From Siderastrea radians (taxonomy: Eukaryota; Cnidaria; Anthozoa; Scleractinia; Rhizangiidae), in contig OZ024897.1 in NCBI GenBank assembly GCA_964017195.1, forward strand, positions 11,521,451 through 11,585,450: a stretch of 64,000 nt of DNA. Reading direction: 5' to 3'. The notes below the pieces were generated by a model. It ran no database searches and was not told the origin of the DNA. It saw only the letters and a list, made by a program, of their open reading frames with translations. The number at the start of each line of letters is the position of its first letter. Positions within the stretch are counted from its first letter, which is position 1. Positions 1 through 63,834 of this stretch are shown here, in pieces. The position numbers were made by a program, and so were the translations under genes.

Positions 1-559
1 AGGGGCAAAAATGAAGTGTTTTATATTCACGTCTCGATATTATTGACTGTGATAATGACTTCAGGTGACATTTGATCCGCCATTTGTAAGTCTTGATTGA
101 AGTTGCTCTGATAGCCACTGCCAATCGACCAGAGCAGAGCTTTATTAAGTGGGAAATACAAGTGAATTTTTAGGAAACAGGATAAAGAAATAAAGGAGGA
201 ATTAAATTTTCGTACACACCCCTAGACAGTCCACCCCCACGCAAGAGCACATGGGGTTGTTTGTGGACTGTTTTGGTGTCCATCTATTAATTTTTAACTT
301 AACATTTTAATTTTAACTCACCTTTAATTCTTAACAATTTTCAATTTTCTTAAACTTCATCAATTCCCCTACCGTAACCCTTCTTTTTCTTTATGTTTGC
401 TTTAAAAATCGCGAAAAAATTATCTCAGAAGTGTGGAGGCTCGCACTATGATCCTATGATAGCATTTTTGGATTGAATGAAATCTCGTGGAGATAATTAA
501 TTAAGAAAACAGGCTAAACGTTGGGGGGGGGGGAAGTCATTTAGGTATGTTGCCCCTTT
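1..559. other. non-coding, nothing recognised
   Basis: AT-rich sequence with a short G run near 524. No open frame of useful length and no repeat structure that I can name. Confidence 0.6.
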
Positions 560-569
560 AAAGCCGCGG

Positions 570-690
570 ACCTAGTAACTCTAGTACCAGGGACCCTCCT
601 CTTTCTTTCGATTACCCACCGTTATGGGGCATTCAAAAACAACTTGCATCAACTAAAAACAAAGATTTCCTTTTGAATGGTGGTTATTTC
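570..690. repeat. unit-boundary flank block, degenerate copy
   Basis: A decayed copy of the block found at the start of the sulfotransferase units: a motif like GGACCCTCCTC, then 'CAACTTGCATCAACTAAAAAC' without its last base, then 'AAAGATTTCC'. Better copies are at about 11955-12130, 14125-14290, 30575-30740, 32640-32720, 36430-36555 and 63835-64000. Here it precedes a relic sulfotransferase at about 0.9-1.16 kb. Confidence 0.6.
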
Positions 691-696
691 ATCTCA

Positions 697-765
697 TAGC
701 CTGCGTGGCAGGCGGTCAGACAGGAGTCGGAAATTTTCCTCCTATGCCGTCTGTCACGCAAGCTA
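697..765. mobile_element. 69-bp foldback MITE
   Basis: The left end reads TAGCCTGCGTGGCAG. The right end, read on the other strand, is TAGCTTGCGTGACAG, so the element is essentially one hairpin. A single arm-like motif (GCCTGCCACGCAAGC) also occurs near 14402, at the equivalent position of another unit. Confidence 0.6.
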
Positions 766-879
766 AAAAATTCATAAAAAAATACAAAATGGTTTAAACA
801 TGATACATTTCATAGATCATCATATTCCTGCTTTGCCATCTATAAACGATGTGCAATGATAGTATCTAATTTGTTAGAC

Positions 880-1165
880 ATAAACATGGAAACGACATAA
901 AGATTTTCCACAGCTTTATGATTAGGAATGAGTAGGCAAGGAGAATAACTTTAGCTTCTCATTCACCACTGAAAGTGTCGCACGATGCTTGAGTCCAGGT
1001 TGACTCGTGTCAGTTGGCGATGCTTCACTCTGAGACTTCAGTATAGAAATTTAAGTCATTCACATTATGCAGGGTATCAAACAAATGTGGACTGCAGCTC
1101 CACTATAACACAATGCGATAAATACATTTATTGTACGACAATAAAGATTTGTTTTTATTGAATAA
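880..1165 (-). pseudogene. sulfotransferase-unit relic
   Basis: Strongly decayed sequence that aligns by eye with 24265-24560: shared AACATGGAAACGACA, then ACCACTGAAA, then GTTGGCGATGCTTCACTCTGA and a block ending in ATTGTATGGA or ATTGTATCAA. The GGCGAT..TTC..TCTGA stretch corresponds to the 'RKKYRQHNER' codons of the intact paralogs read on the minus strand. No frame is preserved. Confidence 0.45.
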
Positions 1166-1744
1166 AAAGTATTGTATGGATTGTTCCGACTTTTAAGTGC
1201 AAGTTCTAATTTTGAATTTCGTCCAACATCGTAACGGAGGAAATTTTTCTGGAAAAACTATTTTGCAAAGGTTTTAGAGTGTTTTTACTTCACCCGTGAA
1301 ACACTTTCCAAGAATTAATGCCAAACAGACAGAAGTAAACAAAAGAAAACAATGAATCAGTGTGAAATACTGCGTCGTCGTGTAGTAACTGCTTCACAGG
1401 TTCAGTAAAATCGCTGCCTGATTCTGACTTTTTTTCTTTTTTTTCCTTTATTTTTTTTGCAGAAAGAAGGCAAAAATGCAAAAAGTAGATCTTCCCCCAA
1501 AAATAATTATTTGCATAATAGATTTTCTATATCGGGTCCAGTGTTATGTAAGAGTGTCACCTGCAATTATATTGCATGATAGAACATCACCAGAAATAGC
1601 GTGAAAGAAATCACCTAAGACATGCATCGTGACTCTAATTAAGATCACTTACTGAATAGCGTGACCGTATCGCACGAAAATGTTGTCTAGTAGGCTGCCA
1701 ATTTGCAGTAAATCTGTGCCTGTAAATGTTGCAGCTCGAGGTGT

Positions 1745-2476
1745 CACAGTGATATGTGTTTCCTCGTGATATGTGTTCCCCCACACACATATCACTAGTG
1801 ATCTGTGTTTCCCCGCAAACATGTCGGCCAGTGTTTTTGTGTTTCCCCCACCCACCTCCCCTCCAATAAAACAGATTCCAGAAAATGCACTTGTCTCAGC
1901 TAAAAAAGGAAAGCTATATTTTCTTCAAATGTCTGCGGGAAGTTCTGAATCTCCCGAGGACATAAATGCAGCATTAAAAAAAAGTTTTTTACAGCTGGTT
2001 TAATATGTCGCCCAAGGGTAATCCCTACTTAAGGATTTGTAAGTAGTAATTCAATCTCACGAAACAGATGAACGTTCAGGTTGACTTACTTAACTTTTTA
2101 ATACGTTAGCGTTAGTAGGGATGGTGAATGGTACATTCGAGAATTAGCGAGTCTATGAGACGATCTTTTTCTTGTGCGAGCATGTTTTAAGCCCTGTGAG
2201 AAGTCAACACTGATAGAAAGCTTAGCAAAACGATTGAGACCCAGAGACGGCCTGAGCGAAAATCGAGACTCCGAGACTGGTTTGCAGAAAAGTCGCGACA
2301 CAGAGAAGTAATTGAAAAAAAAAAACCGAGACTGCGAGACGCTTATGATTCAGCCAAAATTTTGCGATACCCTTATCAGTGTTTGGATACCATTTGTGTT
2401 TCCCTACAGGGGAAACACATATCACTAGTGATATGTGTACGGGGGAACACATATCACGGGAAAACATATCAGTGTG
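1745..2476. mobile_element. 732-bp MITE-like element with self-palindromic inverted ends
   Basis: The ends 1745-1814 and 2409-2476 are inverted copies of each other, about 70 bp long with a few mismatches. Each contains the same internal palindrome, centred on ATATCACTAGTGATAT, and repeats of GATATGTGTTTCC. Termini start CACAGTGATATG and CACACTGATATG. No clear target duplication is left. Two overlapping short frames inside do not resemble a known protein. Confidence 0.7.
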
Positions 2477-2603
2477 ACGTGGGTTTTTCCATAGTTAACT
2501 GCTAACCGGAATGATCTACACAAGCCCTACCTCCGGCTTCAACTGAAGCCAGTTTGATGTCTCTGTAGTCCTTTTTAAATCTGGGATTTCTGAGTACCAC
2601 CAT

Positions 2604-3653
2604 TTCATGAACCAGTAAGTTTTATCACAAGAACAGCAACAAAAAGCAATATTCGAACATAAAGGTGTGGGCTTTTGTGGATTTAGCTTCAGCAGCATCC
2701 CCTGCAAAGGTCTTTTTCGAATCAGCGTTATCTACATTTGCTCGCGGAAACAGAGTCGACAGAGTATTGTATCCAAGAAATTCACACAGTGGTTTCCATC
2801 CTTGTTTAATACTGTAATCAAGAAGCCTTTCTGCAGGAATAACGGCCTGAACTCTCTCATTGCGTTGATAATATTTCAGCCTGAAGAGAACTGTAGCCAC
2901 ATTATGCAAGGTATCTACGAAGTACACACCGTTAATCCCGGGGGGGAGGGGTATTCCCTTAATAAGCTATATAGGTATGTGCGGAGCCAAAGGTTATGGC
3001 TTTTGAGCCTTTCTGGTCTGAAATAGGGTGTAGATTTTGAGAATTTTGGTCTGAAACAGGGTAATGTTTGTGCACTCTAATATGAAACCTGGTATGGCTC
3101 TTATAAGAAGCTACCTTTCTATTAATTTTCTTCTCCTAAGAACTGAGGTTTCATTAACGTTGGGAATTTGAAGCCCTTCTCAAATGTTTACACAAAAGAA
3201 ATAGGGTTAGGGTCTGGTCTGAAATAGGGTAGAGAAAATCAAATATTTTGGTCTGAAATAGGGTAAGGGTTTCCAGACGCGCGCTGCACACCCCCACCCA
3301 AATCTTTGGGAATACCCCCCCCCCCGGGCAGTTAATCCACCAAAGAGCGAGCATCGCAAAAAGTTCTTTCGTCAAAATTACACGGAGACGCCCTTTCCAT
3401 CTTTTAAGCCACACTTCTTCAGAGTGTCGAATGTGAGTATAACTTTCGCTGCTCGGAATGCGGCTGCAATCTCTTCGAACCAAAATACTGGCGGATTGAA
3501 GTCAGGAAGACGAACGGTCGCAAAAGTATCAAGCCATTCTTGTCCGTGACAATCGTGTTCTTGGAAGTCACAGACATTGTGTCCAAGAATCCGAAGAGCT
3601 TTAGCCAGAGTGGTGGTTTCAGTTTTCCCTAAACCTGCACAAATCACCTTCAT
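2604..3653 (-). pseudogene. sulfotransferase-like copy A, interrupted by a MITE
   Basis: The start MKVICAGLGKTETTTLAKAL (3653 downwards) matches the P-loop start of the intact copies. About 12 codons corresponding to KEMYQGVDAITD are missing after LPDFN. The frame then shifts after 'AAKVILTF', and a 392-bp MITE (2939-3330) with an 8-bp target duplication splits the middle. The C-terminal part resumes at about 2927 with ERVQAVIPAERLL, KQGWKPLCEFLG and a degraded hydrophobic tail. Deletion, frameshift and insertion together mean that no functional product is expected. Confidence 0.9.
2939..3330. mobile_element. C/G-capped MITE, copy 1, in pseudogene A
   Basis: Flanked on both sides by GTTAATCC (2931-2938 and 3331-3338). 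The ends are inverted: CGGGGGGGAGGGGTATTCCC on the left and GGGAATACCCCCC..CCCGGG on the right. Inside are several copies of GGTCTGAAATAGGGTA. The uninterrupted sequence is visible in paralogs (for example GTTGGACCACCAAAGAGCGA near 9335). An 8-bp duplication would fit the hAT superfamily, but the G/C-rich terminus is not a typical hAT end. Confidence 0.88.
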
Positions 3654-3881
3654 TTTAACAGCAGTTACATGCAGTATGTGTAACGCTAGAAGGTTTTACA
3701 TTTCAAAGGTCAATTTTTTTTATTATTTTATGCGATTTCGTCTTTGATTTAAATACATTAGAGCAGCAGTTTTCAAATCACCTGTGTAAATTGAGCTCAT
3801 TATTTTTTACGGCGATGTGACTAGGATTTTGAAGTATTTTCCTGGGAGTAGAAACTGAGGGATCAAACAACTGGAGGCGTA

Positions 3882-3945
3882 GCCTGAAATAGCGTGAGAG
3901 AAATCACCAACAATTGCGTGACACAGAAGGTCACTTAGCGTGAGT
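3882..3945. repeat. conserved block downstream of the sulfotransferases (GCGTGA..AAATCACC)
   Basis: 'GAAATAGCGTGAGAGAAATC' is followed by 'ACAATTGCGTGACACAGAAGG'-like sequence, without coding frame. Close versions lie 3' of other copies at about 1598-1640, 9788-9830, 12712-12775, 30866-30915 and 54985-55030. It is probably simply part of the duplicated unit; a regulatory role is possible but unsupported. Confidence 0.6.
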
Positions 3946-4123
3946 CATTGCAAATCATCTCTTGATCCATAGTTATTCTAAATGTTGGTGTAGGTCTTAG
4001 AATATATAAAAAAATTATTTATAAATGTCAATTAAGTAAATTGTTTAACGCAGACCCCACATCCTGCTTCAACGGAAGTTTGAGGTGGTTTTGTAGATCT
4101 GCTGATTACTGTGTACCACCATT

Positions 4124-4837
4124 TCATGATCTTATGAATTTCGCCATTAAAACAGCGACAAAAAGCAAAATTCCCAACAGACAGACGTAGGCTATTCTGG
4201 ATTTTATTTTTGCCGCATACATGGCCAAGTTCTTTTTGCTTCCAGCTTGACCTGCATTTGCTTGCGGAAATTGACTCGACGGAATATCGCATCCAAGAAA
4301 TTCACACAGTGGTTTCCATCCTTGTTTAACATTAAAAACAAGAAGCCTTTCTGCAGGGATAACGGCCTGAACTCTCTCATTGTGTTGGCAGTACTTTTTT
4401 CTGAAAAGGGCTGTAGCTTTAGGGTTGGAACCCCCGAAAATCGCAGTGCGCGAGGTACGAAGAAAACGGGTAACATTGTTCCACCAAAAAGCAATCTTCA
4501 CATATGATGGTATCTCTTTAGACAATTGGCGTTGCCTCTTGTAACTCTCAAGCCACTGTTCTTCGGAGTCTCGAACTGTGAGTATAACCTTAGCTTCTGG
4601 GAAGACTGCTGCAATCTCCTCGAACCAAAATACTGGCGGCATATCGGTGATGGCATCGACGCCTTCGTACATCTCTTTGAAGTTTGGAAGACGATCGGTC
4701 TCAAAACTATCAATCCATTCTCGCTGGTGAAAAGTTAAATGTTCCATGAAGTCGTACACATTGTATCCAAGAACCTGAAGAGCTTTAGCCAGACTGGTGG
4801 TTCCTGTTTTGGGTAAACCTGCACAAATTACCTTCAT
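4124..4837 (-). CDS. sulfotransferase-like, tail-anchored (copy B)
   Basis: 237 aa, single exon, open. The start is placed at the ATG giving MKVICAGLPKTGTTSLAKAL because every paralog shares it. The frame is open for 50 further codons upstream to 4987, but that part is not conserved. Residues about 4-20 (AGLPKTGTTSLAK) form the P-loop-like site that binds the 5'-phosphosulfate of PAPS in sulfotransferases; VILTVRDSEEQWLES near residue 90 fits the 3'-phosphate site. ERVQAVIPAERLLVFNVKQG and WKPLCEFLG are family-typical. The last ~25 residues form one hydrophobic span (CLLGILLFVAVLMAKF), which implies a tail anchor with the catalytic domain in the cytosol. The family matches the short sulfotransferases of Pfam Sulfotransfer_4; the acceptor substrate is unknown. 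Identity of the fold is likely, the function inferred. Confidence 0.85.
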   Translation of the reverse strand: MKVICAGLPKTGTTSLAKALQVLGYNVYDFMEHLTFHQREWIDSFETDRLPNFKEMYEGVDAITDMPPVFWFEEIAAVFPEAKVILTVRDSEEQWLESYKRQRQLSKEIPSYVKIAFWWNNVTRFLRTSRTAIFGGSNPKATALFRKKYCQHNERVQAVIPAERLLVFNVKQGWKPLCEFLGCDIPSSQFPQANAGQAGSKKNLAMYAAKIKSRIAYVCLLGILLFVAVLMAKFIRS

Positions 4838-5385
4838 TTTAACGGGAGTTGCTAAGTGTACAGTATCTACAAAGCCTTCTACAGTTGCGTGACGACCCAA
4901 ATATGCGTGAAGAGCAACGTAAGAGACTTTCGCCTGATTGGTCCGTTTTGAAATCATATTGCGGATGGTCACGTCTTGTTGTCCCAAAATTTAAAATGCC
5001 GCTGTTTCGAGTACTTGGACTCTTGCACAGCAAAACAATCGGCACTCGCAGTGCAGATTGGAGTAATCAACAGTTTAGCCAAATCAATACCAACAGGCGT
5101 TCGAGACCGAGAAATGCATGAAGTAAAGCTCCAAGAACCTTAAAGATTCGCCCAACTCCTCGAGCCTCCTGCCGACTCCAGCCGAAACGCCTTGTTGGTT
5201 GTTGCCTGATGTGTAGGTGTAATACTGTGATTTGATGAACTTTGCAACGTGTTCGCGGTTTTGAATAAACTTTTATAGGAAATAGAAAGTTGTGCATCTG
5301 AGGCGTTTATCTTTTGTTTTGTTTTTATTTTACATTCAAGGTTGGCTTAGCTTACATGTCTGTGGAAGATATTTGTGTAAACCAT
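4838..5385. other. 5' flank of copy B, no gene
   Basis: Contains the unit-specific 5' flank (TGATTGGTCCGTTTTG, TTGCGGATGGTCACGTCTTGTTGTCCCAAAATTTAAAATG), also present upstream of copy D near 11237-11295 as TTAATCCGTTTTG and GTCTTGTTGTCCCAAAATTC. Short frames here have no recognisable product. Confidence 0.55.
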
Positions 5386-5880: not shown

Positions 5881-7988
5881 AAAAATTGGAGGAAGCTAAT
5901 AAATCCCTGAAAGTAACGAAAGTAACGATGCCCCCGATAGTAGCGACCCATTCAATGCTTATCATCCACAGATAGATGGAAAATTGGGTTGGACCCAAAG
6001 GATATAGACGGCAATGGCGTCTATATACGTTTATCAATGTAAAGACATTAATAAACAAAAATTCACGGTTTTTATGTACGGGCATTATTTTCATTATGTT
6101 GTCTGAAAAGTTGACAGTTTTGACCCCCAGTCACTTTCCGGTAAGGTAAATACCTTTTTATCTCGGATAACTGGCTTTGCTTTCGGATCGATCTGAGTAG
6201 GTTTTAATTACTTTTTGTCATAAATCACGTTAAATTTGAGTGGCCACTTCAATTTGCAAATTGTGGATGATACAAAATGTTTCTTGCTATTAGTTGCTTT
6301 TAGCTGCCGAAAAGCGCATTTTTTTGTCACGCAACAAAACAAAGGAACAAATTTGAGAACTGATGTCTGGTGACGAGATCGCAATACTGGACTCACACAT
6401 ACATACACATAACCTGCTTATACACGGTCCTGTGAAGACCCACCCTCAAGAAATAGAACATAACGCATTCTATAATACTATATGTCGTGCATGATATTGT
6501 TATTTTCCTAGGTTATCTTCGTCATCTTAATATTTGGGTAAATATATTTTGATTTATTTGCTTTAAAAGGGGGGTTCACTTTATTTTAAATTGGGGATCA
6601 CTTTAGTTTATTTGCAGAAAGCAATTTCCTTTAGTTCTTATCAATTTTAATTATTTTTATCATATTTTAGTAAACCGTCTTGTGACAGTATTTTAAAACG
6701 AAGAGAACTGGCTTTTGGGGCCAAATCGACTCTCTTAGTCTTGTAGTATACCACTCTAGGGTGGCGAATGGTAAATTCCATGACTCAACCGATGTCGGGC
6801 AAAACGTTTTGAACTCCGACGAAACGGAAAGAAACACACTAAAACGAGACCTAGCGACCCACTAAAAACACTTCCGAGTTTTGGATATCGTATGACAATT
6901 TTTTGATACCCGTTCTTACAGTACCATCCAGCACCCCTTATTGTATTCTCAGTTCTATTAGCGTATCGGTATAGGGAATGTCGATAACAAAGGCAATCCT
7001 GTTAGATTTTTATTCATTTTTTCCAAACTAAATAGTAAAGTTAGTATAAATAGTATAGTTATAGTTTTGTTACTTTTTAGCCCATCGTTCGATTCAATCA
7101 CTCGATTTTTTTTCCTTTCATATTAATTGAATTTCCAAAATTAATGCATTGCTTTTTTAGGCTTAGGTTACGAAACACAAAGCACTGCATATATGGACAG
7201 TTGCTGTAAATAGTAATTCCTGTTAAAGTTAGTGTTACGTTAATATTAGCTCAGTATGATTTTTATGACTTTTTAAACGTTTTTTATGATTTATTATTGT
7301 AGTTTGGACTTTGTTTAAGTAGACGAAGTTAGTCACGGCTAATGGAACTGTAAAAAAATATCAAAATATATTTCTGATTTTAGTATAAGGATTTAGCAAT
7401 TTAATATAAGAATAACATATCTTGATTAATGAATCGACTGATAAACGATTGAGTGACTACAGAAAAAAAAGGAAAAAACAGTCCAAATTATCGTTTTCAT
7501 TATTTTATTTTTGACTCTGTGACTTTGAAAATTAAAAGAGAATCACGAAGAGAAGTGCAAGATCCGCAGATGTCTTCTGTTGTGTTTTACGGTAGTAAAC
7601 TGCTGAAGGCGGCGGTGAGGTATGGGAATATGAAGCTAGTTACAATTCGCGCTGTACAGGTGAGGGGTCGCGGGACACCTTGCAGTTTAACATAAGCGCC
7701 ATTTGGCTAAGCGTGACTGTTTTTTCGTCACAACGAATCACGTGAATCAGTGCCATCTATTTTTGTTTTCCGCGTTTTAGGATTATGGGTGATGTTCCGC
7801 CGTTCCTCGTTTTAGGATTTGGGGTGATTTTCCGCCATTCCTCGTTTTAGGATTTAGGGTGATTTTCCACCGTTCCGCATTTTAGGATATGGGGCGATTT
7901 TCCGCCGTTCCGCGTTTTAGGATTTAGGGTGATTTTCCGCCGTTCCGCCATTCCGCCATTCCACCATTCCTCGTTTTAGGGTCGCCCT
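5394..7988. mobile_element. 2.6-kb element with satellite-built inverted ends
   Basis: GTTAAAAG occurs directly on both sides (5386-5393 and 7989-7996). The left end begins GGCGACCCTAAAACGAGG; the right end read on the other strand begins AGGGCGACCCTAAAACGAGG. Because of one shared A, the duplication could be 6 or 8 bp. The left arm (about 485 bp) and right arm (about 230 bp) consist of the same ~35-bp satellite in opposite orientations. The 1.9-kb centre has no frame above 80 codons, so the element is non-autonomous. Confidence 0.85.
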
Positions 7989-30236: not shown

Positions 30237-30574
30237 ACGCAGCTTCGGGTTTTGTGACGACGGTGATGTCTTGCTTGCGTAGAGCTCGGGGCGTCTGCCG
30301 AAAACCAAAGTAACGGACAAGGAAATCGGACAGGAACCGGAAACCGTGCAAGACAAGCCTGTGGCACCCTGATAAACCGGCGATTTTGATGCGATTTTAG
30401 CGGTAACCACAAGGTTAGCGTGTTTTTAAATCACCAATGATTTTTGCTTCGATGTCAAAAAGCCACCTTGAGGCTAGAGACCTAAGGTTGTTTGACGTGT
30501 TTTATGTGGTTATAAGGTTAGTTTAGGTCAAGTTTAATCTCTACATTGTAAGTCTAAAATTAAAAAAAATAATA
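30237..30574. other. duplicated 5' flank of the sulfotransferase unit
   Basis: Contains GTGACGACGGTGATGTCTTG, AGTAACGGACAAGG, AAACCGTGCAAGACAAGCC and GATGCGATTTTAGCGGTAA. The same series occurs at about 31915-32460, 36115-36300 and, interrupted by transposons, from 55990 to 63780. Confidence 0.8.
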
Positions 30575-30740
30575 ACTACCGAGGAGCCACCTCAGCTCAG
30601 AGGCAGTGATCTACTCAAGGGTCCAGGGACCACCTCCCTCTCTTGCTCCCTTCAACCGTCCAAAAATAACTCACATCAACCATAAGCACAGACTTGCTTT
30701 GCAGTAGTTTAATCTTTACTGTGTCAAAAAAATTCACCAA
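30575..30740. repeat. unit-boundary flank block
   Basis: AGGAGCCACCTCAGCTCAGA, TCCAGGGACCACC, AAAATAACTCACATCAACC, TTGCTTTGCAGTAGTTTAAT. In this copy a sulfotransferase stop codon follows about 370 bp to the right. Confidence 0.85.
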
Positions 30741-36101: not shown

Positions 36102-36560
36102 TTAGTTGGGTTGTGTGACCACGGTGATGTCTTGCTTGGGGCTCGGGATCAGCCGAAGAGTAATCCCGCGTCTTCCGAAAACCGAAGTAACGAGCAAGGG
36201 AAATCGAATCGGACAGGAACTGGAAACCGTGCAAGACAAGCCTCTGGCACCCTGATACACCGGCGAGTTTTGATGCAACTTTAGCGGTAACAACGATCGT
36301 GTTTTTAAATCACCAATGATTTTTGCGTCGACGTCAAAGAGCCACCTTGTTTTATGTCCACGTGATGATATAGGCTGTGATCATAACGACTCAAAGGGTC
36401 TGCCAGTTTACGTCAAGTTTAATCTCTACCAAGGAGCCACCCCAGCTCAAAACCGTGATCTATCGTCCATTTTTGATAACGCAACCAAAAATAACTCACA
36501 TCAACCATAAGCAAAGATTTGCTTTGCAGTAGTTTAATCTTTTCTATGTCAATAAGTTCA
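36102..36560. repeat. duplicated 5' flank plus unit-boundary block
   Basis: GTGACCACGGTGATGTCTTG, AGTAACGAGCAAGGG and TTTAGCGGTAACAACG lie in unit order, then GGAGCCACCCCAGCTCA and TTGCTTTGCAGTAGTTTAAT. A sulfotransferase fragment follows directly. Confidence 0.82.
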
Positions 36561-57402: not shown

Positions 57403-57475
57403 CACTTACTGGGTATTTTCAAAGGTCCAATGTTTAATACTGATGTCAGGAGATTTTTGATGCGATCTTAACGGT

Positions 57476-57641
57476 TAGCCTCCTCCGCAGGCGTCTTTGT
57501 GGCTGGCTCCTTTACCTATTTTCGAGTCAAATTCGGAATTGGATCCCTGTGGTATCATTTTTTTCACCGAGCGGGGCCTAGGGAGAAGAGAAGGAAAAAA
57601 CGAGGAGGGGGGGGGGGGGGCGGAGAGACGCCTGCCTAAAC
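57476..57641. repeat. left terminal region with nested inverted repeat
   Basis: Tip at 57476-57492; inner inverted copy GACGCCTGC at 57627. A G run lies at 57607-57620. Confidence 0.85.
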
Positions 57642-57763
57642 CCAAGCCTTGTGGACTTCTAGTGTCACCCAGTGGACATGTAATGGGACCCGGGGTACGG
57701 TGGGGCGATTTTGCGGCGCGTAAATCCCTAAGGGGACCTAGGCGTGGTTTAGATGCAAAAAAC

Positions 57764-60385
57764 ATGGCCGCTTCTTCAAGTGATGGCTCTGTGCAACCAA
57801 GCCCGTTTGAACTCTTCCAAGTATTGTAAAACAAAAATCCCAATCCTAAGCAAAGATTACAAAAGTGTAGTGAGTCACGTGAAGTCCAAGAAGCTCGAAG
57901 TCGAGGAGAAGGAGGCCGAAATATCACGGCTAAAGGCCGACTTTCAAAATCTCGGCATCAACAAAAAAGACGAGGAGTTGCCATCGTTGGTGTTGGGAAC
58001 AACATCTTCTGCTTCTAGTGTCTCTACAGCCACACCAACACTCAGAGATCACTCTTCCGGACGCATAAGGACAGTCATTCGAACGCCCGGGGGATCCAAG
58101 CGAAAAGGTATTAATTTGAGAACACTTTTCATGTTCGGTTTTCATTTGAGAAGAGAAGTGAGCTTGCAGACTTGATAAAATTTAAACGACGAAAATTTTT
58201 GCCTTTCTATCGACAGTTAAGCCATCACATGTAAAGTTTCGGTTTGAACTGGAGACAGCTCTTCAATCCGTCATTGAAGCAGCGAGCGAATCTCAGAGCA
58301 TCAAGGCAGACGAGCTCATCAGCGTGCTAAACAAGAATTATCCCGCCTCGCGTTACATAGACAGAAAGCGAATTTTGAAAACAGTTTCAGAGATTTATGG
58401 CAAGTCGTTGCAACGGAAGGGAAAACAAAAAGAGTAAGTTTAATGTAAGGTTTAGCGGCTCTCTTCATGCGAGGTAGTTTCTACTTCAAGTCATCGACGA
58501 GATAACAATAACATGTCTCACCTTTGATACATCTGTTGTGTTCTAGAGGCTATTACTTTGGTCTTACCCTAAACGCTACAGAAGAACGTACTCCAGATCT
58601 CTCAGGTACTTACTTATTTTTACTTATTTTTTAACTTATTTTTTTACTTATTGTGTGTGCCTCCGTCTGGGTTTTCAACCCTTTCTCTGCAAGCCTTGCG
58701 TTAAAAAACTGCCCTGGAACAGGCAGTCTTTTTTCATTACATTTAACTAATAGTTTTAATGTGTCGAAAAATAAAATTACAAACACACAGTGATTATTAT
58801 AATTATGTAATGCCAATTTTAATTCAACGCTAATCATTTTTACAGGATCAGATGAAACAGTTCTGTTAAATTGGCTGCATATGAGGGGTACACCAGTCTT
58901 GTAAAATGTCTTGTGTATTCGGGAGCACTCATAAACGAGAAAGACGGAAGTGGTCAAACAGCGCTTACTCTTGCCTTGCACAGAGGATTTACCGTGATAG
59001 CAAAGTTTCTCATTGAAAATGGAGCTTCTGTTAACGGAAAAGACTATAAAACAACCCCTTCTCCCGCAGAAATTTCTGAAGCTTGTAAACTCGGGGGAAA
59101 TCACTGCAATTATTGAATCTAAAATTCAAGAAGAAGAATTTGCAACCAAAGAACTTTCCAAATCTTTAGGGACTAAATTGCCAGAGCTGGAAAATATGGA
59201 CATCGATCAATTGCCTCCAAACGAATTACCTGGTGCAGAGGTGGTAAAAGAAAACCTAGCACTTGTGCTTAACATAAATGTAGGCGATCAAAAGAATACG
59301 GCTAACATTCACGGATGCATAAATCGATGCCCCGATACATATTCCTGTCACTCGCCGGGGGGCGGCGATTTCCACAACAGAGGATATCTCAATGAGTCCA
59401 TTGCCAGGGTGGCAGGACATGGCGGCTTCTGGCACGTGACACAAGATGTAATGAAACGACCTACTGTTAACAAATCTTCTTTCGACCAGAAATTTAAAGA
59501 CAACAATTACAACAACAATGAAGAAGCACTTTTAGACTATGACGATGGGGTTTCCATTGCAATGATTAGAAAATTCCAGGAATCGAAATACTTCCCCTCC
59601 AACGCTGAGCTGTCAGCTTCAGTTGCTTTGAAGAGAATGCCAGTCATAACAAAGCATTGCTAGACGGCTTTGCTAAGTTCGAGTCTGAGGAATCCAAAAA
59701 AGATGAACAGTTTGCTTACCAGTCAAACATTGTCAATAACTTAATGCCAATTACAAGGTGGTACAAAGAGTCTGTGAGATATGGGAATGGAGTTGCATTA
59801 GAGGGCGTTTGGATGTTGTGTCCTTCCTTATACTGTGCTTTAGGGAAAATCAATTACAGGGACGAAAGTTTCACAATGATAGTGAACAGCATTGCCAAAT
59901 GGCCACTGGCCTACAGAAAAATGTACCAAAGGAACAGAACTGTCAGCCTTGACGGAAAACGAGGGAGAAACCTTGCAGGAGACGAATGGGTTGAGGGGCA
60001 TCTTGTTCGCCCAGTTAAGCAATACGCTTCATCACAAACGAACTTCACAATGCTTGAGCTGATGTCTTGTAACACAGGATTACTTGAATGCAATCGAGCA
60101 ATGTACAAGAGCCTAGAAGCATTTGATGTTCACAATACTCGGAAACATTGTAGGCCAAGTTCACTATACGATCAACTTAGGGTCAGTCAGTTCGCCTTAC
60201 GAGAAGAATGGTTTGTCAATAAGAATAGAAAGGATGCCAAGGCATATCCATGGACAGGACACAGTTGTAAAGAGAGCGAAAGTGTCCCCCAGAAGTATAT
60301 TAATGTTTTGGAAAAGGGAAAGACAAAAGCTGAAGAGGAATTCAAAGGTTTCTTACAGAGAAAGTTCCCTAATGATATGTTATGA
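57764..60385 (+). CDS. ankyrin and DUF6589-like transposon protein, frameshifted
   Basis: Exons 57764-58107, 58217-58433, 58547-58605 and 58846-60385, with GT/AG borders and matching phases at the three introns. It starts MAASSSDGSVQPSPFELF. Exon 1 contains a charged helix (VSHVKSKKLEVEEKEAEISR); exon 2 reads VKFRFELETALQSVIEAASE. Exon 4 begins with two ankyrin repeats (AAYEGYTSLVKCLVYSGA, DGSGQTALTLALHRG). Its last ~240 codons resemble DUF6589 (GKRGRNLAGDEWVEGHLVRP, MYQRNRTVSL). The frame breaks near 57830, 58866, 59094 (GGGGG where four G keep the frame) and 59662. It converges with the helicase gene and shares its transposon. A role in transposition is inferred from position only; DUF6589 has no known activity to me. 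Confidence 0.72.
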
Positions 60386-61419
60386 TTATTCTCGGAACAA
60401 ACTGAAACCTTGTGTCTATTTTAAAAAAATCTGCCACAGGAAGCCCAAAAACTAACAGGAAGTACCCCCCCCCCAAAAAAAAAACAACAAACAAACAAAC
60501 AAAAAAAAAACAAAAAAGAAACAAACAAACACAAAGCAAAATCGAAACCAAAAAAAAGAAACAACCCAAAACTTGATTCCCCTAGAGGCATAAAGGGTGG
60601 ATTAAAAAAAGAACAGAAATACAAAATGTCCCACCTTGATCCTTATTGCCTTTATGATTTTTGTATGGAAAATTAGGGGAATGTGTGTACTAGTGTGTGA
60701 TGTACAAAACAAAAGGAAACAAAAGATGATTTGGAATTTTTACTTTTATGTTAGCCACTAACTGTTTCACAGGTTAAACAGCTCTAACAGAGAAACGTGT
60801 TTTACTGCTTTTTCTGGAACAATTTAGCTCCATGATTAGGTAACAAATAAAGAAAAGACAACAAATTACGTCACTTGATTTATTTATTTATTACTGTACT
60901 TTTCTATAACAAAACTCTTAACCAATTATGAAAGGTCTAGAGGCAAGTTAAAATTACTGAATAAATTGTCATTGGATTCAATAATTAATGGTAATTGCCA
61001 TGCAAACAGAGTGTTTCGCCGTTATAGCATTTTCACTGAGACTTTTTCTCTTTTTTCTGTCTTTTCTCAGAATAGCAAAATATATTGTTTCCACCACTTT
61101 ATATTTAAAAAATAAGAATATTAAAAATAATTTGAATTTGAAGCTAATTTTTATTTTTTTTTCTTGTTTTAGTTCTGCATGCTCATGATCTGGTTGGAGT
61201 ACAGTATACATTAGCAGTCTAATAAGGCTGCTTAGAGTTGTTTCATGTAACCTGTGAAACAGTTAGTGGTTTACTATATGCTGACACATACAAAATTCCA
61301 AATAATCTTTTGTTTCCCCTATTTTTGGATATCACTCACTAGTAAACACTACTAACTAACGGTTTCACAGGTTAAATGAAACAGCTCCAAGAATTAGGGG
61401 AAGTTCTTATAAATACTAA
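60386..61419. other. spacer between the convergent genes
   Basis: A-rich tract 60466-60560. CACTAACTGTTTCACAGGTT at 60754 recurs inverted at about 61248-61272 and again forward at 61353-61376 (ACTAACGGTTTCACAGGTTA). Probably contains both 3' ends; AATAAA occurs at 60845. Confidence 0.6.
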
Positions 61420-63368
61420 TTATGATGGCACAAACTTTGGACATGTATACTGTCCTCCAAGCAGACCATGAGCTTTGGGACCTAAAGCTACATTGATCAC
61501 AAAAGAATTCCGTGAAACTGTTATTATCTCTGACAAGATCTGCTGATGGATGAGCATATGTACAAATTTATCGAGTAAAATAGAAGGCATTTTCTTTGAC
61601 AAGCACCCAAAATTAGATAGTTCGTCACATCCTGCATCTTGCACTTTCTTCTGTTTACTTCCAATCAAGATCAGTTTTAACATGTTTGCATTGACCTTCC
61701 TATTTCCCAGTTCGACAACTGTCTGCACAACCTTTGAAGCTTCACTGGTACCATCAGCCAAGCAAAATGATCCCCTGGACAAACAGTTGTCACACTTTGT
61801 TAGAAAGGAAAAGTCTTGTCGTTCCTCTCCAAAATATTCCATGATGATCTTGTGCCTGCAGTGAACAACATTCTCCAAACAGGAAATCAGTTCATTAAGT
61901 GTGTAATGTTGTCTAGTTATCAGTCCTTCACGGTTGAATAGTTTATACAACATGCTTTTGTCGCTGTAGCTGTAGAATAGCAGGCAGTCGGCACGTAAGC
62001 CATCCCGGCCAGCTCGACTGCATTGCTGAAAGTACTCAGTAGAGGTTGGCAGCTTGATGTGTACAACATACCGAACATCTGTCTCGTCTATTCCCATTCC
62101 AAATGACGAATTTGCTACAATCACTTTGCATTCCCCAGACATCCATTTCTGAAAACTTGCTTGTTTCACTGCCTCTGACAGTTGTCCATGATATTTGACA
62201 CACTTTATATCTTTCTTATGCAGCTCAGCATGAATCTTGGAGACATCATTTTGAGACACCCAGTAAACAATTCCAGTGTCCTCACCTCTCTCCCTTATGT
62301 ATGCTATCAGTTCTTCCATATATTTACTGTCTCTGTCCTTACCTCTTAATGTTAAGTTCTCTCGATGAACAGTATGTGCTACCACCTTCCATGACTCCCC
62401 CCCTAAAAGCTGCTTCAAATCGGCTTGGATTTCCCAGGAATAGTGGCACTTAGAAGCAATTTGGGGGCGTCCAGTCTTGCTAACTTCTCGCTAACCTCTC
62501 TATATTTTGGTCGAAATGTTGAGCCCCAGGTATTAATAGTGTGGGCTTCATCGAACACCACCCTTTCCACGGATAAATCGCCCTCGGTTAGGCCTTCAAG
62601 AAGATGTTGTTCCAAAGCTTCTGGGGTCGCATACACCAGATTATATTGTTTAAAAGTTTGTTTCTCGTGCTGCAAAACGTCTGTGTCCATCCCACCAAGA
62701 AACATGCATGACTTGATTCCGTTATTTTCGGAGCGTGAGAGCAAGTCCTCTATAAAAGACCTTGTAGGCGAGACTACAAGTGTCGGTTTGGTAGCAAGAA
62801 CAGCTGGGAGCATAAACGTCAGACTTTTACCACCACCAGTTCCTATTATGGCCAGAACATTCTTCCCTGACATAGTCGCAGAAATTGTTTCCCTTTGTTT
62901 AGGCTTTAAGGTAGAGTGACCGAAGAATTTCTCGAGTGTAACCTGTAAGAGATCGCTGCTGCCGTTGGCGTTGGTTTCCTCCGAAACACGTTGTTCTCTG
63001 TGCTCGCTAAGCGATTCTCTCGCTTCCATGGTGTCTTCTCCTATCGCAGGAGAAAGTCTTGGAGCTTTTGTGGTACTTCTCAGGATAACTCTTGGCACGT
63101 TTTCATCGATTTCGACCTGGTAAATCCATTCTGTTCCTTCAAACTTGCATGTCAACTGTTCGTCGTTGTCTAAAAGTGCGAGATTCGAGAGCACGAAACT
63201 TGTCTTCAATGCTGCCTCAAAACTTGATCCTGCTTTAACATTTAGTTTTGACTCCCGAGTCTGGGTCTCAAAGGAAAAAAATTCTGACCCAGGTTTCAGA
63301 ATAACGGTTTGTTGGAGTTTTTCAGACGCGTCAAGATAGAGCAAATCGGAATCAGATGCTTCCGCCAT
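61420..63368 (-). CDS. RecQ-like DNA helicase in a transposon, one frameshift
   Basis: It starts MAEASDSDLLYLDASEKLQQ. About 150 N-terminal residues are unlike other RecQ proteins. The helicase core follows: LKPKQRETISATMSGKNVLA, Walker A GTGGGKS, VVSPTRSFIEDL, DEAH, LLLSATIP, then after the break GIVYWVSQ, NSSFGMGIDETDVRYVVH and QQCSRAGRDG (arginine finger motif VI). The cysteines in SCLENVVHCRH and KCDNC form a RecQ-type zinc site, with a winged-helix-like region behind. The frame shifts by one base at about 62436, after SATIP; one additional T would join the two parts into about 650 aa. No intron signal explains it. 3'-5' unwinding is expected for the family; its role in moving this element is inferred. 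Confidence 0.85.
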
Positions 63369-63520
63369 CTTGCTTGCACGACTTGTCAAATTTGGAAGTC
63401 AAAAATACCCGAGTAGGGAAGGTTGCGAAAAAAATGTATCTACAAAATAATTCCCTCCCCTGGTCAGTGTATTTTGCGCCCTGCGCAATGCAGATGCGCA
63501 GACCCACTCAAGTGTGTCGA

Positions 63521-63678
63521 GTTTAGGCAGGCATCTTATTTCTTTTGCGCCCCTCCTCCGAATTCTCTTCCGGTTCCGGTCTAGTCGCCTCAGTCTTCTC
63601 TCTCCCGTTGCGATAACAGCGGAGTTCATTCACCGGATTCGTGCTTTCCCTTATAAGAGATGCCTGCGGAGGAGGCTA
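63521..63678. repeat. right terminal region with nested inverted repeat
   Basis: Tip on the other strand TAGCCTCCTCCGCAGGCATC; the inner copy GTTTAGGCAGGCATC at 63521 pairs with it, as on the left side. Confidence 0.85.
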
Positions 63679-63834
63679 CTTAACGGTATTATTAATTAAG
63701 TTTGTTTTCAAATCTCCGACGATTTTTGCTTGTCTTGCTAGGATTTCGCCGCTTGGAATAGAAGTGACTGAAAAGGTCAGTTCAGTTCAAGGTTAATCTT
63801 CATACTTCAAGTCTTTACTTAAGGGAAAAATCCC

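Follow-up and report, generated by a model that had tools for sequence, protein, structure and literature searches.

A deleted AcademH-like transposon in Siderastrea radians and the case for a DDE transposase encoded by two genes

What kind of element brings together a RecQ-type helicase and an ankyrin protein between short inverted ends? The question is raised by a 6203 bp element in a 64,000-nucleotide (nt) stretch of the Siderastrea radians genome (contig OZ024897.1, positions 11,521,451 to 11,585,450), here called the window. An earlier sequence-only reading took the element for a complete transposon with two convergent genes, one for a RecQ-like helicase and one for an ankyrin/DUF6589-like protein. 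We propose that it is probably an internally deleted copy of an 11.1-kb AcademH-like cut-and-paste transposon encoding a two-gene DDE transposase and a helicase. In the proposed full element, gene 1 has several exons and would carry the N-terminal part of a DUF6589 (PF20231) transposase, stopping short of a GDQ motif. Gene 2, a single exon with its own ATG, would encode an ankyrin domain at its N-terminus and, after that, the C-terminal part of the transposase, including the candidate second Asp (in GDQ) and the candidate Glu (in GDEWVE). Gene 3, on the opposite strand, would encode the RecQ-type helicase.

The window element is flanked by an exact 9-bp target-site duplication, CTTAACGGT, and bounded by terminal inverted repeats, TAGCCTCCTCCGCAGGC, identical over 17 nt and matching at 95% over 21 nt, much as the sequence-only reading had described. 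The convergent genes that it reported are seen as Pfam signatures in the window's frames, ankyrin and DUF6589 on the + strand and RecQ on the − strand; both genes are remnants. Uninterrupted versions of the site had been placed at about 30388 and 36270. The joined flanks do align over the insertion point, to 30369–30728 (score 246) and 36252–36557 (score 163), but the left flank contributes only 36 nt and alone scores 44 and 43, below shuffle maxima of 60 and 58. The empty site is therefore graded as moderately supported.

Searches of the species' own genome covered 805 Mb in 439 contigs (C1, C2 and so on below), with only the best candidates scored, so that counts of ends are lower bounds. 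The left end has at least 19 matches and the right end at least 18. Together they give at least 18 loci that have both ends, the extra left-end match coming from one copy in which the left tip is duplicated; one of the 18 loci reaches a contig end. Among the 17 assessable loci, the 9-bp duplication is exact at 11 (10 found by script, 1 by eye), has one mismatch at 4 (3 by script, and a rearranged C10 copy by eye after one side was reversed) and is not clear at 2. The duplicated sequence differs between loci. Twelve copies measure 132–1555 bp, one of 132 bp being little besides the ends; five exceed 11 kb, and the window copy lies between. Since both ends recur together at 18 loci, most with 9-bp duplications, the window element belongs to a mobile transposon family and is not a chance arrangement. 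The further copies that the sequence-only reading had hoped for thus exist. Two copies show local rearrangements: at C10:1279205–1291193, a long copy, the right end and its duplication are inverted relative to the remainder, and at C2:62625718–62626518 the left tip, with flank and duplication, is tandemly duplicated (266-bp match, 99.6%).

The window copy itself is not complete. Relative to the 11.1-kb copy at C1:10703422–10714555 (the C1 copy), it lacks about 5,025 bp; the deletion runs from the 3′ exons of gene 1 through the spacer into the beginning of gene 2, and spared the 5′ exons of gene 1. The retained DNA is 95.9–97.2% identical to the five long copies. The remaining gene 2 piece passes the Pfam cut-off for DUF6589 (31.5 bits). 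The helicase has DEAD, Helicase_C, RecQ zinc-binding and RQC domains, all above the Pfam cut-off, together with a Walker A motif and a DEAH box, which bears out its description as RecQ-like. With the NCBIfam RecQ model, neither of its two window pieces reaches the cut-off set for a whole protein, which is what a broken gene should show. The deletion, the gene 2 frameshifts and the broken helicase frame together suggest that the window copy, an internally deleted derivative of the 11.1-kb transposon, is non-autonomous.

All five long copies contain gene 1, gene 2 and helicase sequences, with losses in two of them (C10 and C2 at 62.6 Mb). In the C1 copy, the gene 1 exons, as predicted from open frames and splice-like borders, extend from about 485 to 5254 (+), the gene 2 ATG is at 6356 (+), and the helicase runs from about 11070 to 9091 (−). 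The best solved relatives of the N-terminal 418 residues of the C1 helicase are RecQ and WRN. A stop codon ends gene 1 in each of the five (TAA in four, TAG in one), the gene 2 ATG is likewise conserved in all, and the two are separated by 1,092–1,118 bp with an in-frame stop upstream of the ATG. The five copies are of one family, so they do not provide independent evidence for this conservation. The arrangement suggests that gene 1 and gene 2 are not spliced to each other and are separately translated. The PF20231 segments in the window family fall on two genes, each with its own stop or start, and with a candidate splice acceptor between them.

The central observation concerns how these two genes relate to ordinary DUF6589 proteins. 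Single-chain DUF6589 proteins were gathered with an own-genome locus as query (120 matches); 18 were aligned, and later 32 diverse sequences. In hhalign comparisons, the gene 1 homologs align to residues 67–305 of the single-chain protein P0178 (E 2.4e-5, probability 75.7%), and gene 2 without its ankyrin part aligns to residues 381–762, beginning at GDQ (E 2.1e-6, probability 89.3%). The scores, 50.2 for gene 1 and 57.6 for gene 2, stand against maxima of 26.0 and 30.4 across 200 column shuffles each. hhalign gave no alignment of the ankyrin part to the single chains (E 0.21) and no match between gene 1 and gene 2 themselves (E 0.46). An earlier profile comparison, in which the canonical set was six near-identical sequences, had found no match, whereas the 32 diverse sequences gave one. 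The gene 1 match persists when four other template masters are used (E 1.3e-5 to 0.0025). Five single-chain proteins that were scanned are 667–793 residues long, have DUF6589 over at least 376 of 410 positions, and have no ankyrin match. Thus, by profile alignment, gene 1 and, outside its ankyrin region, gene 2 are shown to correspond to consecutive, non-overlapping segments of single-chain DUF6589 proteins. The sequence-only reading had regarded the ankyrin/DUF6589 protein as the transposase; DUF6589 is there, but gene 2 holds only the second part, the first being on a separate gene upstream.

Homologs of each part are found in other cnidarians. Gene 2 has 80 homolog matches, about 59 of which, judging by where the E-value drops (after P0059), match beyond the ankyrin region; lengths of 560–567 residues are seen in 14 of the first 26. 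The motifs INVGDQKNT, GGGDFHNRGY and GDEWVE are invariant or nearly so among 29 aligned homologs, and all 29 gene 2 rows scanned, out of the 80 matches, have a DUF6589 match at E ≤ 0.1. Most full-length homologs have a Met a few residues ahead of the first conserved Trp. For gene 1, with the best 7994 candidates scored, there are four matches, 50–54% identical: one is from Paramuricea and three are from Actinostola, of which two are marked as partial in the source. Two of these, P0081 and P0082 from Actinostola, reach the C-terminal conserved block and end shortly after it with acidic tails; the remaining two stop before the block. In scans of viral contigs with both protein alignments, 31 and 72 pattern matches contained no relative.

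Related families came to light in a search of the own genome with P0081, which gave 58 matches. The family B copy at C2:25.43 Mb has open frames in gene 1 exons 5 to 7, the last residues before the stop being ...DADENVDD; gene 2 lies about 1.7 kb downstream, is 99.5% identical to P0018 and has one internal stop; and beyond gene 2, on the opposite strand, is a 652-residue helicase frame. Identity to the window family is 58.6% for gene 2 and 48.6% for the helicase, and the right tip of this copy differs at 1 of 20 bases. Its left end is broken, and the ends of the family were therefore read on a C1 copy with gene 1 matches inside (C1:51501357–51513202), which has exact tips at both ends and an exact 9-bp duplication, AGCTCTGAA. 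Family B thus shares the layout, the tip and the 9-bp duplication, all of which have been kept over a large protein divergence. More distant gene 1 relatives (30–33% identical), called family C, are found at C7:25713537–25716377, C11:1710924–1713773 and C2:55401324–55404162; there the gene 1 C-terminal region lies inside a 707-residue open frame, so that family C could be an unsplit relative.

Several observations weigh against a transposase divided between gene 1 and gene 2. With the four other masters, the gene 2 match persists but begins after GDQ (E 6.9e-6 to 0.021), and one master, P0204, gives weak matches for both genes (E 0.0025 and 0.021). As GDQ is aligned only with P0178 as master, the GDQ correspondence depends on that master and on inspection by eye. 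The first Asp is also placed by eye, on a resemblance of the gene 1 motif TYQDN to DN(I/L)D in the single chains; hhalign, however, puts TYQDN in a gap and sets the canonical GDN opposite a nearby stretch. The Pfam matches of gene 1 do not reach the cut-off (P0081 has E 0.0083, and the last exon in the C1 copy has E 0.05), none was found for P0082–P0084, two of which fall short of the region, and the first gene 2 row, a whole protein, is under the DUF6589 cut-off (23.3 versus 27 bits). Finally, the genes are damaged in every one of the long copies read. In the C1 copy, a stop interrupts the helicase, and gene 2 has both a stop and a frameshift; several genes of the C2 copy at 23.99 Mb contain frameshifts and stops; the C2 copy at 62.6 Mb partly lacks gene 1 exons 2 to 6 and has stops in the helicase; the C10 copy is rearranged and has lost part of the helicase; and the C4 copy has an uninterrupted helicase frame of 737 residues, but its gene 1 exon 1 contains a stop, its gene 2 is frameshifted and it has large insertions.

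The competitor that fares best is that splicing joins gene 1 to gene 2 to yield a single polypeptide, the ankyrin domain being an insertion within the ordinary DUF6589 transposase of an AcademH-like element. The two genes are adjacent and on the same strand in both families, and a pyrimidine-rich stretch ending in AG, a possible splice acceptor, precedes the gene 2 ATG. Against this, the in-frame stop ends gene 1 in all five long copies, two Actinostola homologs and family B gene 1 end at the corresponding place with acidic tails, and the Met just before the first conserved Trp is present in most full-length gene 2 homologs. No joined protein is among the matches, which for gene 1 came from the best 7994 candidates, a joined form of about 1270 residues being outside the length range searched. 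We consider this splicing unlikely.

Less likely still is that gene 2 is the entire transposase, with an active site made of GDQ, GDFH and GDEWVE, and that gene 1 encodes an accessory DNA-binding protein. The near-invariance of all three motifs in gene 2 is what speaks for this. However, the part of the single chains upstream of GDQ is absent from gene 2 and is matched by gene 1, and where gene 2 has DFHN, most aligned single chains have, by eye, WH followed by T, N or similar. Gene 2 alone also lacks a confident predicted core. AlphaFold (53 sequences) is confident for the ankyrin domain and for helices at about 284–372 and 380–410, whereas residues 174–236 and 433–495, which hold GDQ and GDEWVE, have pLDDT below 50. 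Low confidence around these motifs fits a core modelled without its partner, but may merely reflect a shallow alignment, a further point against the divided enzyme. The gene 1 model is poor (pLDDT 41.8, 4 sequences). Fold searches with the gene 2 model found ankyrin-containing chains among the 50 rows listed each time and left the catalytic part unaddressed. That the DUF6589 family is a DDE transposase is suggested by its presence in transposons with clean duplications and by the order in which its conserved acidic motifs occur.

Kolobok elements duplicate TTAA. A RecQ-bearing, KolobokH-like identity is rejected as very improbable, as the duplications here are 9 bp of varied sequence and the protein matches DUF6589. 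The transposase of Kolobok elements also differs from that of the window family. In favor of the identity, KolobokH and Kolobok-1_CCri likewise are DNA transposons with a RecQ helicase, which in Kolobok-1_CCri lies on the complementary strand (PMC9587614); RecQ helicases in DNA transposons are thus already known. As for host genes in a segmental duplication that look transposon-like by chance, the idea draws on the usually cellular role of RecQ helicases and is rejected as scarcely credible, since 18 loci, among them the 132-bp copy, share these ends and differ in their 9-bp duplications.

The lineage that remains for comparison is AcademH, of the Academ superfamily, reportedly defined by Kojima in 2020. 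AcademX encodes a nuclease of the XPG type. In PMC10045372, AcademH is given 9/10-bp target duplications and a helicase, and AcademX 3/4-bp duplications and a nuclease; PMC10799480 ascribes DEAD and Helicase_C domains jointly to AcademH, KolobokH or Helitron. The window family resembles AcademH, as portrayed there, in its 9-bp duplication and its element-encoded helicase, which lies inside the element ends in the long copies and, in family B, adjoins both gene 2 and the right tip. AcademX, which would be of the same superfamily if AcademH applies, differs on both counts, and no nuclease match was found in the window-family frames scanned with Pfam, a scan covering all but some short exons. A contrast with AcademH as so described is that the window family's transposase would be on two genes, the second part with ankyrin. 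AcademH is thus the closest known lineage by duplication length and helicase, and the label AcademH-like, which the sequence-only reading had offered as member or new relative, stands on these two features and not on transposase kinship. The single-chain DUF6589 proteins of cnidarians and molluscs share homology with gene 1 in one segment and with gene 2 in the next, and differ in being one chain, with no ankyrin match in the five scanned.

DUF6589 is mentioned in no paper of the literature collection searched, which covers few subscription papers. A search of that scope, through titles and the starts of abstracts, turned up no divided DDE transposase and no ankyrin-bearing transposon. In the S. 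radians genome itself, DUF6589 is abundant (103 matches listed; 430 first-look candidates, 102 of them scored). Several of the matches are uninterrupted single chains, for example, of 639 and 666 residues, and at C6:31728854–31750180 four equal-scoring matches on one strand follow each other at intervals of about 6.77 kb, which resembles a tandem array.

How would a divided transposase work? We propose that the products of gene 1 and gene 2 come together to form a single DDE catalytic domain with an RNase H-like fold. The assembled enzyme would bind the TAGCC... tips and the subterminal motifs, excise the element and insert it through a 9-bp staggered cut. The ankyrin domain perhaps aids assembly or regulation, and the helicase may assist by unwinding the ends or by processing donor or target DNA. 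The short copies (132–1555 bp) and the window copy would have been moved by proteins supplied in trans. On balance, we lean slightly towards the fuller claim of a eukaryotic DDE catalytic domain permanently divided between two proteins, the second fused to ankyrin and RecQ being a third partner, in at least two families of this genome and with each part present separately in other cnidarians. Division between two genes would be unusual for such an enzyme; to our knowledge, DDE transposases are known only with the catalytic triad on one chain. If true, a naturally divided transposase would provide a two-component switch that is already made, reveal at which point an RNase H-like fold can be interrupted, and offer a tractable system for asking why some transposons carry helicases. 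Genes annotated as ankyrin or DUF6589 in cnidarian genomes may then need to be read in pairs.

The features of the window copy are collected in Table 1.

Table 1. Coordinates of the ends and gene remnants of the element, in window positions.
Feature	Coordinates	Strand	Details
Target-site duplication, left copy	57467–57475		CTTAACGGT
Left terminal inverted repeat	57476–57496	+	17 nt exact, 21 nt at 95%
Left subterminal motif	57626–57641	+	GCAGGCGTCT of the tip, in inverted orientation
Gene 1 exon 1 remnant	57798–58106	+	98% identical to C1 copy; query residues 12–114
Gene 1 exon 2 remnant	58216–58434	+	
Gene 1 exon 3 remnant	58548–58607	+	
Internal-deletion junction	58866–58873		about 5,025 bp of the C1 copy absent
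Gene 2 remnant	58871–60385	+	ankyrin repeats, GDQ and GDEWVE, C-terminal DUF6589; startless, two frameshifts
RecQ-type helicase gene	61420–63398	−	DEAD, Helicase_C, RecQ zinc-binding, RQC; frameshift between 62415 and 62490
Right subterminal motif	63521–63536	+	inverted partner of 57626–57641
Right terminal inverted repeat	63658–63678	−	
Target-site duplication, right copy	63679–63687		

Two smaller features deserve mention. A 10-mer of the tip, GCAGGC(G/A)TCT, is repeated in inverted orientation about 120–140 bp inside each end, in the two subterminal motifs, and is a candidate second transposase-binding site. Between the convergent genes, at 60683–61391, there are inverted repeats of 58 nt at 84%, 37 nt at 89% and 27 nt at 93%, which could be a separate insertion or a terminator-like structure.

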